Shown here: piece after piece, positions 10,980 to 44,931 of the stretch
Layout of the letters: the number at the start of each line of letters is the position of its first letter
Numbering within the stretch: position 1 is the stretch's first letter
From: Klebsiella pneumoniae
Lineage (GTDB): Bacteria; Desulfobacterota; Binatia; UBA12015
Length of the DNA: 64,000 nucleotides
NCBI GenBank assembly: GCA_945872365.1
Contig: CAMBZJ010000007.1
Location: 1-64,000, forward strand
Direction of reading: 5' to 3'
Program-made: the position numbers and the translations under genes
Notes under the pieces: generated by a model
The model's database searches: none
What the model was told of the DNA's origin: nothing
What the model saw: only the letters and a program-made list of their open reading frames with translations

Positions 10980-11666
10980 TCAGGTCTTCGCGAGATCCCG
11001 GGCCAGGCCGGCGAGTGCCGCGTCGGGCGGGATGCCGTGCGGAACCGACACGATCCGCGGGGCGACGCCGAGGTCCGCGAGGGTCTCCGCCAGCGTCGAA
11101 GTCGCCAGGTCGGTCTCGGCGGAGACGTGGTTCACGACCAGGGCCACGACCTCGAGGCCGCGGGCGCGGGCTGCCTCCAAGGTGAGCATCGCATGGTTGA
11201 TCGCGCCGAGGCGCGCAGCGACGACGACGACGAGGTGCGCATCGAGCGACCGGGCGAGGTCGGCGAAGGTCGCACGACCGGTGAGCGGCACGAGAAGGCC
11301 GCCCGCACCTTCGACGAGCAACCGGTCCACTTCGCGGGCACGCACGCGGCAGGCATCGACCACGGCATCGAGGTCGATGCGGACTCCGGCGCGGGCAGCG
11401 GCCACGGCCGGTGCCAGTGGCTCGGCGAAGCGGTACGGGCAGACAGCCTCGAGCGTCTCGCCGCCACCGGCGGCGGCGGCGAGCGCCGCCGCGTCGGCGG
11501 GTTGGAGCCTGCCGCCGACCGACTCACAGCCGGTCTCCGCGGGCTTGCGTGCCGCGACCCGCAGGCCGGCGCCTACCCATGCACGCAGCAATCCCGTCGA
11601 CACCCAGGTCTTGCCGACGCCGGTGTCGGTGCCGGTGACCAGGAGCGTATTGCGGAGGCCGCTCAT
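10980..11666 (-). CDS. bioD: ATP-dependent dethiobiotin synthetase
   Basis: LLVTGTDTGVGKTWVSTGLLRAW, ARKPAETGC, LLVEGAGGLLVPL. Confidence 0.94.
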   Translation of the reverse strand: MSGLRNTLLVTGTDTGVGKTWVSTGLLRAWVGAGLRVAARKPAETGCESVGGRLQPADAAALAAAAGGGETLEAVCPYRFAEPLAPAVAAARAGVRIDLDAVVDACRVRAREVDRLLVEGAGGLLVPLTGRATFADLARSLDAHLVVVVAARLGAINHAMLTLEAARARGLEVVALVVNHVSAETDLATSTLAETLADLGVAPRIVSVPHGIPPDAALAGLARDLAKT

Positions 11667-13010
11667 GCCTCGGTCACCTCGCGGATCGCGGCCGCCGCGG
11701 CGCCGACGAGCAGGTCCGCCTCGTCCTCGGTGAGCGAGAGCGGCGGCATGAGGACGATCACGTTGCCGAGCGGTCGCAGGATCACTGCGTGGCGCCGGGC
11801 CGCCTGGCACACCCGCTGGCCGATCCGCGCGCCCGGTTCGTAGGGCGTGCGCCGTTCGCGGTCGGCGACGAGTTCGATGCCGACCATGAGGCCGTGGCGG
11901 CGCACGTCGCCGACGTGCGCGAGCGGCTCGATCTCGCGCGCGAGCAGCTCGCCGATCCGCGCGGCGCGCGCGCGCGCACGGGCGAGCGTGTCCTCGCGCT
12001 CGAAGATGTCGAGGCTGGCGAGCGCCGCCGCGCAGCCGAGCGGGTTCCCGGTGTAGGTGTGCCCGTGGAAGAAGGCCACGAAGTCCTCGTACCGGCCGAG
12101 GAAAGCGGAGAAGATCTCCTCGGTCGCGAAGGTCGCCGCGAGCGGCAGGTAGCCGGCGGTCAGACCCTTTCCGACGCACAGCAGGTCGGGGCGCACCCCG
12201 GCGTGTCCGCAGGCGAACATCTCGCCGGTGCGCCCGAAGCCGGTCGCCACCTCGTCGCAGACCAGCAGTGCGCCGGCCTCGCGGACGAGCCGCTCGAGGC
12301 CGACCAGGTAGGCCGGTGGGTGCGTCCACATACCGGCGGCGCCCTGCACGAGCGGCTCGACGAATACCGCCGCGAGTTCGGACGCGTGGGCGCCGATCGC
12401 GCGGCGCGCGTCGTCGAGCGCCGCCGCGACGGCGGCGTCCCCGGAGAGGCCGTTGCGCCAGCGGAAGACGTGCGGCGGCAGGATCCGCACCACGTCGCGG
12501 AAGAGCAGGTCCTCGTGGTGGCGATGGAAGGTCTCGCTGTAGCCGATCGCGACCGCACCGATCGTGTCGCCGTGGTAGGCGTCGGCGAGCGAAGCGATGC
12601 GACGCCGCTCGGGGTGACCGCGCAGCCGCCAATACTGGAAGGCCATCTTGAGCGCGATCTCGACCGCGGTCGCGCCGGCATCGGAGTAGAACACCCGCGT
12701 GAGCCCCTCGGGTACGATGCCGACGAGGCGGGCCGCGAGTTCCGCCGCCCCGGGGTGCGTGAGCCCGAGCATCGTCGTGTGGGCGATGCGGCCCAGTTGC
12801 TCCACGACCGCGGCGTCGATCGCCGGGTGGCGGTGACCGTGCACGTTGCACCAGAGCGACGACACCCCGTCGAGGAAACGTCGACCGCGCTCGTCGACGA
12901 GCCAGTTGCCCTCCCCCGAGACGACGACGAGTGGCTCGTCGGCGAGCCAGTCGCTCATCTGCGTGAACGGGTGCCAGAGGTGGCGATGGTCGAGTTCGGC
13001 GATGCTCATG
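11663..13010 (-). CDS. bioA: Adenosylmethionine-8-amino-7-oxononanoate aminotransferase
   Basis: HLWHPFTQMSDW, VSSLWCNVHGHRHP, GTGFGRTGEMFACGHAGVRPDLLCVGKGLTAGYLPLAAT; 4-nt overlap with bioD. Confidence 0.95.
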
Positions 13011-14184
13011 CGACCTCCCCGGCACGCCCGCGGGCTGCGCGCACGAGGACGTCGATCGCGTGTTCGAGGTGGTCGTCGCGGTGGGTCGCGATCGGCGTGA
13101 GTCGCAGTCGCGCGCTCCCCTCGGGAACCGTGGGCGGCCGGACCGCAGGCGCCCAGACGCCGTCGGCGAATGCGCGCGCGGCCCAGGCGAGTGCCGCCTC
13201 GGCGGAGCCCGCGAGGAGCGGCACGATCGGCGACTCGAGCGGTGGCACCTCGAGCCCGGCCGCGAGCAACCCCTCGTGCAGCCGGCGCGCGCCGCGCCAC
13301 AGGCGCTCCCGGCGGGCGTCGTCGGTGCGGGCGATGCCGACCGCGATCCGCGCCCCGGCGACGACCGGCGGCGGCAGGGCGGTGGAGAAGACGTAGGCGC
13401 GCGCACGGTTCAGCAGCAGGTCGATCATCTCGCGCGAACCCGCGACGAACGCACCGTAGCCGCCGAGCGCCTTGCCGAGCGTCCCCATGCGCACGGCGAT
13501 CCGCTCGCCGAGTCCGAGCTCCTCGGCGAGCCCGGCGCCGGTCGGACCGAACACGCCGGTCGCATGCGCCTCGTCGAGCAGGATCCAGGCGCCGTGGCGT
13601 TCGGCGCTCACGACGATCGCGTCGAGCGGGGCCCGGGTCCCGTCCATGCTGAACACCGAGTCGGTCGCGACGAGCTTGCGGCGCGCCGGCGACGCCGCGA
13701 GCAGGCGGTCGAGCGCATCGACGTCGCGGTGCGGGTAGACGTGGACCGCGGCACGCGACAGGCGGCAACCGTCGATCAGGCTCGCGTGGTTCAGCGCGTC
13801 GCTGAAAATCGCGTCGCCCTCGCCGACCAGCGCCGCGAGCACGCCGATATTCGCGTGGTAGCCCGAGCCGAAGAGCAACGCCGCTTCCGCACCGAGCCAG
13901 GCCGCGAGTTCCCGCTCCAGCGAATCGTGATCCTCCATGTGGCCGCCGAGCAATGGCGAAGCCCCCGCCCCGGCGCCGACCTCGGCGAGCGCCGCGATCG
14001 CGCCGAGGACGACGCGCTCGTCGGCGGCGAGGCCGAGGTAGTTGTTCGAGCCCAGGCAGACCAGCCGGCGGCCCTCGATCTCGACCTCGGGCCCCTGGGC
14101 GCCGCGGACCACGCGCCGCGAACGCAGCAGCGCGCGCCGGTCGAGTTCTGCCAACTCCGCGCGCAGTTGCTCCCAGGCCGCCAT
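13006..14184 (-). CDS. bioF: 8-amino-7-oxononanoate synthase
   Basis: CLGSNNYLGLAADERV, GSGYHANIGVLAALVGEGDAIFSDALNHASLIDG, DEAHATGVFG, GTLGKALGGYGAFV. Confidence 0.94.
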   Translation of the reverse strand: MAAWEQLRAELAELDRRALLRSRRVVRGAQGPEVEIEGRRLVCLGSNNYLGLAADERVVLGAIAALAEVGAGAGASPLLGGHMEDHDSLERELAAWLGAEAALLFGSGYHANIGVLAALVGEGDAIFSDALNHASLIDGCRLSRAAVHVYPHRDVDALDRLLAASPARRKLVATDSVFSMDGTRAPLDAIVVSAERHGAWILLDEAHATGVFGPTGAGLAEELGLGERIAVRMGTLGKALGGYGAFVAGSREMIDLLLNRARAYVFSTALPPPVVAGARIAVGIARTDDARRERLWRGARRLHEGLLAAGLEVPPLESPIVPLLAGSAEAALAWAARAFADGVWAPAVRPPTVPEGSARLRLTPIATHRDDHLEHAIDVLVRAARGRAGEVA

Positions 14185-14190
14185 GCGGGG

Positions 14191-14219
14191 CTGCTAGGCG
14201 AGCACGCCAGGGCTGTCAA
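14191..14219 (-). promoter_or_regulatory. Predicted bioF promoter TTGACA-N17-TAGCAG on the minus strand
   Basis: TTGACA = complement of 14214-14219; 17-nt spacer; TAGCAG = complement of 14191-14196. Predicted TSS falls close to the bioF ATG at 14184. Confidence 0.5.
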
Positions 14220-14248
14220 CCTCGTCGGGTCGACGCGGTTGACAGCCC
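14210..14248. promoter_or_regulatory. BirA-type biotin operator: gggcTGTcAACC-N15-GGTTgACAgccc
   Basis: Perfect 12-bp inverted repeat (14210-14221 / 14237-14248) with a 15-nt spacer. Core matches the established BirA signal TTGTnAACC-N14..16-GGTTnACAA except the outermost base, and lies directly upstream of bioF. Confidence 0.8.
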
Positions 14249-14267
14249 GGGGTTCGGGCGTTTTCGA

Positions 14268-15605
14268 CTACTTGCCGGCGCGCGCGAGGGCCTCGACCGT
14301 GAAGTCCTTCGGATCGTAGGTCACCATCACATCGAGCGCCGAATTCGGGCTCGTCTTGCGGCCGGCGACCGTCGCGCGGTTCATCTTCACGTTCTCGGCG
14401 CACTGGAAGGAGAGGTTGGACCCCTGGATGTAGTCCTCCGTGCCGTCGGGGCGCGTCGCCTTCTGCAGATTGTACGCCATGACCTGCATCGTGTTCAGCA
14501 ATTCGCCCTTCCAGTCGAACTTGCGGTTCCAGGCGCCCTGGAACGACTCCTTGTCGAGCCACAGTTCGAGCTTGCCGAAGAGGTAGTAGCGATCCTTGGG
14601 CACGCCCTCGACGACGTAGAACTTGCGCTTCGCGAGAGCCGAGCCGATCGGCGCCCAGGCGACGCCCTTCCACGCGGGATCGTCGTAGCCTAGTTCCTTG
14701 CCCTCGGGCCAGAAGAAGCGCCAGCCGCCGTTCGGCTGCCACTTCGCGTCGTACTTGCCCTCGAGGTTGCGCGGGTCGACGAAGCGCAGGCCGTCGACTT
14801 CACCCTTGAACGTCCAGTTGAAGTCCTCGGGCTTCCCGTCGAAGAACGGTCCGTCGTCCTGGCTCATGTCGGAGCCGAGGAAGCCGTCCGAGCGGTTCGA
14901 CGGGCTGACCGAGCGCGCGCGGCGCAGCGCCGGCACGTAGGCCCAAGCCTGGTCGCGCTTGTTGGAGTCGCGATAGCGCCAGGCGAGCGCCGAGGTGCCG
15001 TTGAGATCGGCCGGCGCCTGGGTCTCGATGAGCGCCTGCGAGAGGAAGTTCTGCGGGTTTTCGATCTGGCGCTTCGCGGGCTGGCCGTCGTAGTAGAAGA
15101 AGTGCACGTCCTGGTCCGAGCGCCGTTCGAGCGACGTCGCCCCGACCCAGTTCACCTGCGACTGGGCGTGCAGGTTGCCGTAGGACAGGGTCATGTAGAA
15201 GTAGTTCCATACCGCCTTGGCCGCGGCCCTGGGATCGGCCGGATCGATCTTCGGGAACGGGAATCCGTAGATGTGCGGCGGCAGCTTGCCGGTCGACTTC
15301 TCGATGATCCCGCCGTCGGCGTCGAGGTCGAAGCGCCCGGCGTTCTTCTCGCTCGCGGTGGCGAAGTCGGGCGGGAAGTTGAAGCTCTTCCACTCGACGA
15401 CCTTGTTCTCGTATTCGCCCTTGCAGTAGTGGGCGAGGATCTCCTCCGGCAGCAGCCCCTCGGCCGACTTGCAGTTGTCCTTGCCGAGCGTCGACCCGAC
15501 GGCGGGGCCTGCACCGGCGTCGGCCCGGGCTGCGACGGGGGCGAGCAACGCGCCCGCGGAAAGCGCGAGGGCGAGGGCGATTCTCGATCTGGTCTTCACG
15601 AGCAT
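14268..15605 (-). CDS. DUF1329 family secreted (outer-membrane lipoprotein-sorting-like) protein
   Basis: Signal peptide; typical DUF1329 segments YGFPFPKIDPADPRAAAKAVWNYFY, RSDQDVHFFYYDG, QAWAYVPALRRARSVSPSNRSDGFLGSDMSQDD. Confidence 0.85.
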   Translation of the reverse strand: MLVKTRSRIALALALSAGALLAPVAARADAGAGPAVGSTLGKDNCKSAEGLLPEEILAHYCKGEYENKVVEWKSFNFPPDFATASEKNAGRFDLDADGGIIEKSTGKLPPHIYGFPFPKIDPADPRAAAKAVWNYFYMTLSYGNLHAQSQVNWVGATSLERRSDQDVHFFYYDGQPAKRQIENPQNFLSQALIETQAPADLNGTSALAWRYRDSNKRDQAWAYVPALRRARSVSPSNRSDGFLGSDMSQDDGPFFDGKPEDFNWTFKGEVDGLRFVDPRNLEGKYDAKWQPNGGWRFFWPEGKELGYDDPAWKGVAWAPIGSALAKRKFYVVEGVPKDRYYLFGKLELWLDKESFQGAWNRKFDWKGELLNTMQVMAYNLQKATRPDGTEDYIQGSNLSFQCAENVKMNRATVAGRKTSPNSALDVMVTYDPKDFTVEALARAGK

Positions 15606-15917
15606 GGCGTCGGTTCTCCGTTCGAGTCCGACGGTCCGGAAACTTCGGACCGTCGCACGCAAGGGGGCGGACGGGAAGAGGCCGGCGGACCGGCACGTCC
15701 ACCCTTATTCCCGGTCCCGGCCCGCACGGTCAAGGCGACCCGGAATCCCCGTGTCGGCTCGCCGGCGCAAGCGGGCGCTCGGGGGGGGGGCTCGCGCCGG
15801 GAGATTCCTCCAGGGAGCCGGCACGAACCGGCCCTGTCCGCCGCGCCGCGGCGCCGGCCGTAACTCCTCATGTCCTCCTTGCCCTGGGCCGCTTGCGGGG
15901 ATGTGGTAAGCCGCACC

Positions 15918-35970: not shown

Positions 35971-37806
35971 GTGGCTCCCGACACGGACCGTCCTCGGCGC
36001 GCGCTGATCGCGGGCGCCATCTCCACCGGTCTCGCGCTCTCGCTCCTGTTCGCATGCGCCGGCACGGCGCGCGCGCTGGTCGACGACCGCTTCACGACGC
36101 GCACCCAGCCCGCGAGCAGTCTCGTCATGCCGTTCGACCAGCGGAGCGGGCATGCCTCGTTCCTGATCGCGAGCAACCTCGCCGGAGCGGCGGCGGTTTC
36201 TACACACTGGTCCTTCTGGAACGAGGACTGCTCGAACCTCGGCGAGGTGTCGATCTGCCTCACCCCGAACGACACCGTCGTCGTCGACCCGGGCGCCGTG
36301 CGCTCGCTGGACGCCGCCAACAAGTCGATCGACGAGCCGCTCGACCTCGCGGGAAAGCGCGGCTTCGCCACCGTCACGGCCTACGAGACCGACGCCTCCT
36401 GCGCCGACGGCGCGGCGAAGGGCTACCGACTGGTCGAACGCGCGCTCGTCGGCACCGCGACCATCGCCGACCTTGAGACCGAGGCGTCCTATGGCTTCGA
36501 CGCGATCGGCCTCTTCGCCGCATTCGACGGCAGCTTCGTGAACCTACCCGACCTGCTGCTCTCGCCCGATGCCGCCTCGGGCGCCCTCGCGATCCAGACC
36601 CACGCGCCGAGCCGGACCACGGATTCGCTCGTCGTCCTGCTCGCACTCGGCGAACGCGGCGGACTCTGGCCGGGCGAGGTCGGCCCGGGGCCGGGAACGG
36701 TGAGTGCGTACGCGACCTTCTTCGACAACCTGGAGATCGCGATCTCGCTGCCCGACGTGGCGTTCGCGTGCACGCGCTTCGGCGCGCTCGCGCTGGGTCC
36801 GAACCCGCTCGTGCCGGACTGGGTCGCGCTCGAATCCGCAGGCGTCTACCGGTTGCGCGACCTGCGTATCGACGGCGTCCCGGTCGGCGTGACGACCTGG
36901 GTCTACGGCTTCGTCGGCGAAGCCGTCGGACACTACGGCGCGAGTTGGTCGGCGAAGTACCAGGTGATCGACGCACCGGTGCCGACGGCGACGTCGGCGC
37001 CGTCGGCGTCACCCGAACCAACCGCGTCACCCGAACCGACCGCGTCACCCGAACCGACCGCGTCACCCGAACCAACCGCATCACCCGGACCGACCGCATC
37101 ACCCGAACAGACCGCCACGCCGGTACCGACCGCCACGGCCGAGCCTTCGGCAACGCCGCGCTCCACCGAGACGCCGGCGCCATCGGACACGCCCGGCCCC
37201 GGACCCACCGGGTCGCCCCAACCCACCCCGACGCCAGCGCAAACGGCAACACCCGCGCCCACGCTGGCACCCTCACCGACGCCGGTCGTGACGACGACGC
37301 CACGGCCCACCGAAACCCCGACACCGACGGCCGCACCGACGGCGGCTCCGACGCCGTTGCCGACCCCCACGCCGACCCCCACGCCGAGCCCCGTTCCTAC
37401 CGCGAGGCCGACACCGATACCTTCGCCGACGCCGAGCGCGACACCCTCCCCGACACCACAGCCGACCTCGACACCTACGCCGGTCCTGGTTTCGTTCTCG
37501 ACCCAGGTCCAGCCAATCTTCGATGCGCAATGCGTCGGATGCCACGGCAACTCGTCGCCGAGCGCGGGCCTGAACCTCTCGACGGGTCGCGCATGGGCGG
37601 ACCTCGTGAACGTGAGCAGCACCGAGTGCGCCGGCACCAGGCTCGTCGCTCCCTCGAGTGCCGCGACGAGTTACCTGGTCCACAAGATCGAGGGCCAGGG
37701 GCCGTGCTTCGTCGGGAGCCGGATGCCGCTCGGTGGCACTCCGCTCTCGCCGGCCCAGGTCAAGACGATTCGCGACTGGATCGAGCAGGGCGCCGCAGAC
37801 CACTGA
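35971..37806 (+). CDS. Secreted protein with different N-terminal domain, about 170-aa Pro/Thr/Ala/Ser linker and the same C-terminal single-CxxCH module
   Basis: GTG start VAPDTDRPRR, signal-like ALIAGAISTGLALSLLFACAGTARA; linker (ASPEPT)n; FSTQVQPIFDAQCVGCHGN...SRMPLGG... The track ORF starts further upstream (35785), overlapping the previous gene. Confidence 0.72.
   Translation: MAPDTDRPRRALIAGAISTGLALSLLFACAGTARALVDDRFTTRTQPASSLVMPFDQRSGHASFLIASNLAGAAAVSTHWSFWNEDCSNLGEVSICLTPNDTVVVDPGAVRSLDAANKSIDEPLDLAGKRGFATVTAYETDASCADGAAKGYRLVERALVGTATIADLETEASYGFDAIGLFAAFDGSFVNLPDLLLSPDAASGALAIQTHAPSRTTDSLVVLLALGERGGLWPGEVGPGPGTVSAYATFFDNLEIAISLPDVAFACTRFGALALGPNPLVPDWVALESAGVYRLRDLRIDGVPVGVTTWVYGFVGEAVGHYGASWSAKYQVIDAPVPTATSAPSASPEPTASPEPTASPEPTASPEPTASPGPTASPEQTATPVPTATAEPSATPRSTETPAPSDTPGPGPTGSPQPTPTPAQTATPAPTLAPSPTPVVTTTPRPTETPTPTAAPTAAPTPLPTPTPTPTPSPVPTARPTPIPSPTPSATPSPTPQPTSTPTPVLVSFSTQVQPIFDAQCVGCHGNSSPSAGLNLSTGRAWADLVNVSSTECAGTRLVAPSSAATSYLVHKIEGQGPCFVGSRMPLGGTPLSPAQVKTIRDWIEQGAADH
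37009..37110. repeat. 18-bp tandem repeat (tcacccgaaccgaccgcg-like, about 5-6 copies) coding for SPEPTA hexapeptides
   Basis: Direct reading: tcacccgaaccaaccgcg tcacccgaaccgaccgcg tcacccgaaccgaccgcg tcacccgaaccaaccgca tcacccggaccgaccgca tcacccgaacag... Confidence 0.92.
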
Positions 37807-44900: not shown

Positions 44901-44931
44901 AAAAAGGGGGAGCGGCCGATGCCGCTCCCCC
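44901..44931 (-). terminator. Rho-independent terminator (minus strand)
   Basis: Minus strand GGGGGAGCGG-CATCGG-CCGCTCCCCC-TTTTT: perfect 10-bp stem, 6-nt loop, U5 tract, downstream of CDS 44985..45590. Confidence 0.85.

Follow-up and report, generated by a model that had tools for sequence, protein, structure and literature searches.

In Escherichia coli, the operator bound by the biotin ligase BirA sits between the divergent bioA and bioBFCD promoters. The Bacillus subtilis BirA has three operators, located in the 5′ UTRs of bioWAFDBI, yuiG and yhfUTS, and its binding to DNA requires biotin and ATP (PMC4016012). The published BirA consensus is TTGTAAACC-N14/15-GGTTTACAA, in the form cited in PMC545781, and the delta-proteobacterial sites given in the same paper include those of Desulfuromonas bioW (aTGTcAACC-N14-GGTTgACAg, at −63) and Geobacter metallireducens bioF (TTGTcAACC-N14-GGTTgACgA, at −64). 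Loss of the BirA regulon along with the helix-turn-helix (HTH) domain of the protein has already been described in alpha- and beta-proteobacteria (PMC5343134).

Here we describe a palindrome upstream of bioF in a genome of the class Binatia, within a stretch of 64,000 nucleotides that we refer to as the window. It is very probably the operator of a bifunctional BirA that would repress bioFAD when biotin is plentiful. Judged by its letters, the candidate site departs from the consensus no more than the Desulfuromonas and Geobacter sites do. It resembles the delta-proteobacterial operators (Desulfuromonas bioW, Geobacter bioF and bioB; PMC545781) in (i) its 9-bp arms, with C at the variable position, (ii) a spacer of N14/15, the small number of sites in a genome (one or two) and a location ∼60 nt ahead of a bio operon and (iii) a birA gene that is separate and unregulated. 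It differs from them in its outermost bases, where the whole family of the window has C/G instead of T/A, and no bioB site was found here, unlike in Geobacter. One arm also constitutes the −35 element of a leaderless-type promoter; the published sites were compared without promoter geometry.

The predicted system can likewise be placed relative to the two best-known models. As for E. coli BirA and bioO, a bifunctional ligase/repressor with an N-terminal HTH would act at an operator that overlaps a promoter, but a single promoter is present here and would drive bioFAD only. As in B. subtilis, the ligase falls in group II, but there is one site and it lies upstream of the predicted transcript.

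A palindrome upstream of bioF

The bioF, bioA and bioD genes (Table 1) were identified with curated models, in each case at a score above the cut-off. The palindrome lies in the 83-nt gap that separates the stop of a DUF1329-type ORF (14268, minus strand) from the bioF ATG (14184, minus strand). A sequence-only reading of this region had proposed a perfect inverted repeat with 12-bp arms and an N15 spacer, and inspection of the plus strand bears this out: positions 14210–14248 read GGGCTGTCAACC-TCGTCGGGTCGACGC-GGTTGACAGCCC. The inner repeat that had been noted in the spacer, CGTCG-GGT-CGACG, is present. The claimed match to the BirA signal TTGTnAACC-N14..16-GGTTnACAA also holds, with agreement at 14 of 16 core positions; the two mismatches are the outermost bases of the arms. 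Of the 12 bp in each arm, the inner 9 (CTGTCAACC/GGTTGACAG) are all that the family has in common, and the outer GGG/CCC pairs are this genome's own.

Table 1. Coordinates of the predicted operator, the bioF promoter elements and the neighboring genes
Feature	Position	Strand	Remarks
BirA operator (predicted)	14210..14248	-	arms 14210-14221 / 14237-14248, 15-nt spacer
Family-wide operator core CTGTCAACC-N15-GGTTGACAG	14213-14245		
-35 hexamer TTGACA of bioF promoter	14214..14219	-	inside promoter-proximal operator arm
-10-like hexamer TAGCAG	14191..14196	-	17 nt past -35
bioF, 8-amino-7-oxononanoate synthase	13006..14184	-	TIGR00858, 434.6 bits
bioA, SAM-dependent aminotransferase	11663..13009	-	TIGR00508, 510.2 bits; 4-nt overlap with bioF end
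bioD, dethiobiotin synthase	10980..11666	-	TIGR00347, 161.4 bits; 4-nt overlap with bioA end
DUF1329-type gene (name from the sequence-only reading; no NCBIfam match)	14268..15662	-	not part of the system

Sites of this kind are rare. At 70.3% GC, chance alone would give 0.004 occurrences of the strict core TGTNAACC-N14..16-GGTTNACA in a 3.1-Mb genome and 8e-8 in the 83-nt gap. The N15 form of the strict motif has one match without mismatch genome-wide; with spacers of 14–16 nt there is still one match in the 3.1 Mb, and the reversed control pattern has none. Among perfect repeats with 12-bp arms and spacers of 3–25 nt, the 64-kb window holds one other, a G/C-rich repeat with a 4-nt loop at 44905.

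Conservation of the site in Binatia

A search of 148 genomes of the class with the strict motif gave 14 occurrences in 13 genomes, and the reversed control pattern was found in one genome. Conservation ahead of bioF in related genomes, which had been named as a check on the original proposal, is evident from the 11 of these 14 sites that are located upstream of that gene. A looser scan, run on 48 genomes, covered the 300 nt that precede bioF, with a score of at least 12 taken to define a site; shuffled upstream regions attained this score in 15 of 1920 trials. The family sites are found at similar distances from bioF, at about −50 to −62. Their arms are conserved in base identity and their spacer sequences vary freely, as would be expected if a protein reads two DNA half-sites.

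The three strict sites located elsewhere are of varied context. One, in genome G045, whose BirA has no HTH, is directly before a SIR2 (sirtuin) gene (L106:1501–1530); another is a second BirA-like site in G035 and adjoins a beta-helix protein and ORFs (L113:1501–1530); the last is near a contig end (L205).

It was also suggested in the sequence-only reading that the repeat could form a hairpin that might end DUF1329 transcription, and the element could be either a terminator of that upstream gene or a dual operator–terminator. The minus-strand RNA is indeed predicted to form a very stable structure (−43.7 kcal/mol, z −6.2), and the stem is lengthened by the inner repeat both in this genome and, to a lesser degree, in two congeners where DUF1329 is also upstream. 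Of the features of an intrinsic terminator, however, the GC-rich hairpin is present and the T-run is not: neither strand has a T-tract, and no terminator was called. DUF1329 is upstream of bioF within the genus only. Outside it the inner repeat is not conserved, spacer pairing is no better than that of shuffled spacers in most genomes, and the operator is kept before bioF in other genera with a different gene upstream. What the arms retain is the identity of their bases and not merely the ability to pair. We therefore regard a terminator function, alone or combined with that of an operator, as improbable, and the suggestion regarding DUF1329 transcription is not sustained.

BirA and its DNA-binding domain

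One protein of the biotin/lipoate-ligase family (PF03099) was detected in the genome. Its gene is located away from the bio operon on contig C9, where the order is nadC-birA-coaX by reading of the sequence, and encodes a BirA of 325 residues. A search for a birA with an N-terminal HTH had been proposed as a second check, and this single PF03099 protein does begin with an HTH_11 domain (PF08279, 52.5 bits). Its best matches among solved structures are to E. coli BirA (1bia; E 2.9e-41), with an alignment to residues 10–319 of the E. coli protein that runs from the HTH to the C-terminus. The score against TIGR00121 exceeds the cut-off of that model, and the score against TIGR00122 (59.2 bits) is under a 70-bit cut-off that no searched relative and only 2 of 14 control genomes reached. 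With an HTH_11 match and an alignment to E. coli BirA that starts at the HTH, the protein is, as judged by domain structure, a group II (bifunctional) ligase.

The presence of the site follows that of the BirA HTH. Within the family, the site is found in 9/9 genomes with an HTH-bearing BirA versus 0/3 with an HTH-less ligase, and the lack of the domain was verified for all three of the latter (G005, G006 and G009). In the wider set the site is present in 20 of the 26 genomes with the HTH versus 2 of the 21 without it; the corresponding Fisher p of 4.7e-6 leaves out G013 (site present, BirA not detected, 87% complete) and overstates the association, because related genomes are not independent and the test ignores shared ancestry. 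The within-family contrast is thus cleaner evidence than the overall p-value.

The site therefore precedes orthologous bio genes and is absent where the HTH is absent, with two kinds of exception. Six genomes of another family, f6 (G018, G024, G030, G037, G043 and G050) have kept an HTH-bearing BirA and have no site at bioF, and the strict site was found nowhere in any of the six. In G045, the BirA HTH has been removed by an apparently clean in-frame deletion beside nadC (L196, contig C176, ∼1428), and the bioF gene retains an operator matching at 15 of 16 positions, with one arm position decayed. A recent loss of repressor function is possible in this genome.

Palindromes are common in promoters, and the repeat might instead belong to another biotin regulator, such as BioR or BioQ, or to an unrelated dimeric repressor. 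To our knowledge, the motifs of BioR and BioQ are not of this form. The association of the site with the BirA HTH across genomes and the identity of its sequence and spacing with those of the published delta-proteobacterial BirA sites (PMC545781) make such an assignment very improbable, and we retain BirA as the likely ligand.

The predicted bioF promoter

The sequence-only reading placed a TTGACA −35 hexamer within one arm. This is correct, and the arrangement is conserved: the pattern TTGAC(A/G)-N17-TA-N4-N5..8 followed by an in-frame ATG or GTG is shared by all ten site-bearing genomes of the family (with N18 in one of them). The chance of encountering this composite pattern is ∼1.2% for one genome, and in the window it is found solely at bioF. 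In two congeners the same change has occurred in both arms, and the −35 hexamer there is TTGACG. The −10 hexamer TAGCAG, which ends 6 nt ahead of the bioF ATG, matches TATAAT weakly, and a generic promoter scan reported no promoter. The operator overlaps the promoter so defined.

With normal promoter geometry, transcription would start directly at the bioF start codon or next to it. The conserved −35/−10 spacing thus points to a bioF mRNA that is predicted to be leaderless, with the palindrome upstream of the message. A −35 element inside an operator arm favors a repressor acting through steric occlusion of RNA polymerase, and a repeat located upstream of the bioF mRNA fits occlusion and does not fit RNA attenuation. 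An attenuator- or riboswitch-like hairpin in the bioF leader would account for the strong RNA fold, but with the predicted transcript start downstream of the repeat, and a spacer that varies in both sequence and folding, it is scarcely credible.

Extent of the regulon

The bioB gene is on another contig, where by reading it lies behind a HEAT-repeat-like gene. The best scores upstream of bioB and birA in this genome are 9 and 11 of 16, respectively, which is chance level; a birA without a site is in line with the absence of birA autoregulation in most proteobacteria (PMC5343134). Allowing up to three mismatches with N15 or N14 revealed no convincing additional regulon members. The extra matches have two to three mismatches, and the counts for the motif versus the reversed control (13 versus 4 for N15 and 11 versus 8 for N14) are of comparable order. 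In the absence of a second site at bioB, the regulon here may therefore consist of bioFAD only.

Two further features can be recorded. A leaderless-type promoter-like sequence, TTGACC-N16-TAGATC-N8-ATG, is found at bioB without an operator (L114:1368–1417), and leaderless starts may be common in the lineage. Contig C15 of the window's genome carries a perfect 12-bp inverted repeat, TGTTCACCGCGG-N6-CCGCGGTGAACA (36345–36374; L206), which is possibly the site of another regulator.

A model for BirA control of bioFAD

In the model that we favor, BirA loaded with biotinoyl-AMP would dimerize when biotin is plentiful and place one winged helix on each arm of the operator. The bound protein would cover the TTGACA hexamer in the promoter-proximal arm, blocking RNA polymerase and switching off bioF, bioA and bioD. 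When biotin is scarce, BirA would be engaged as a ligase on the apo-carboxyl-carrier protein, leaving the promoter free. The site, the BirA domains, the footprint, the co-occurrence of site and HTH and the promoter geometry are read from sequence; for the co-repressor, dimer binding, occlusion and the logic of repression, we infer behavior like that of the E. coli and B. subtilis proteins.

Because the operator arm doubles as the −35 element, a change in one would entail a change in the other, as in the congeners with both arms altered. We somewhat favor the view that the operator and this leaderless promoter co-evolve, with BirA control confined to bioFAD and bioB unregulated.

A full-text literature search returned no paper naming both Binatota and biotin. 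The mechanism proposed is a well-known one that is confirmed and not altered by these observations, and the locus is an ordinary, well-supported example of a known control system. It provides a BirA regulon, with a predicted target and promoter, for a little-studied class, the Binatia. The class also constitutes a natural experiment, in that among related Binatia the operator has mostly been kept in genomes whose BirA has the DNA-binding domain and is mostly missing from those whose BirA does not.
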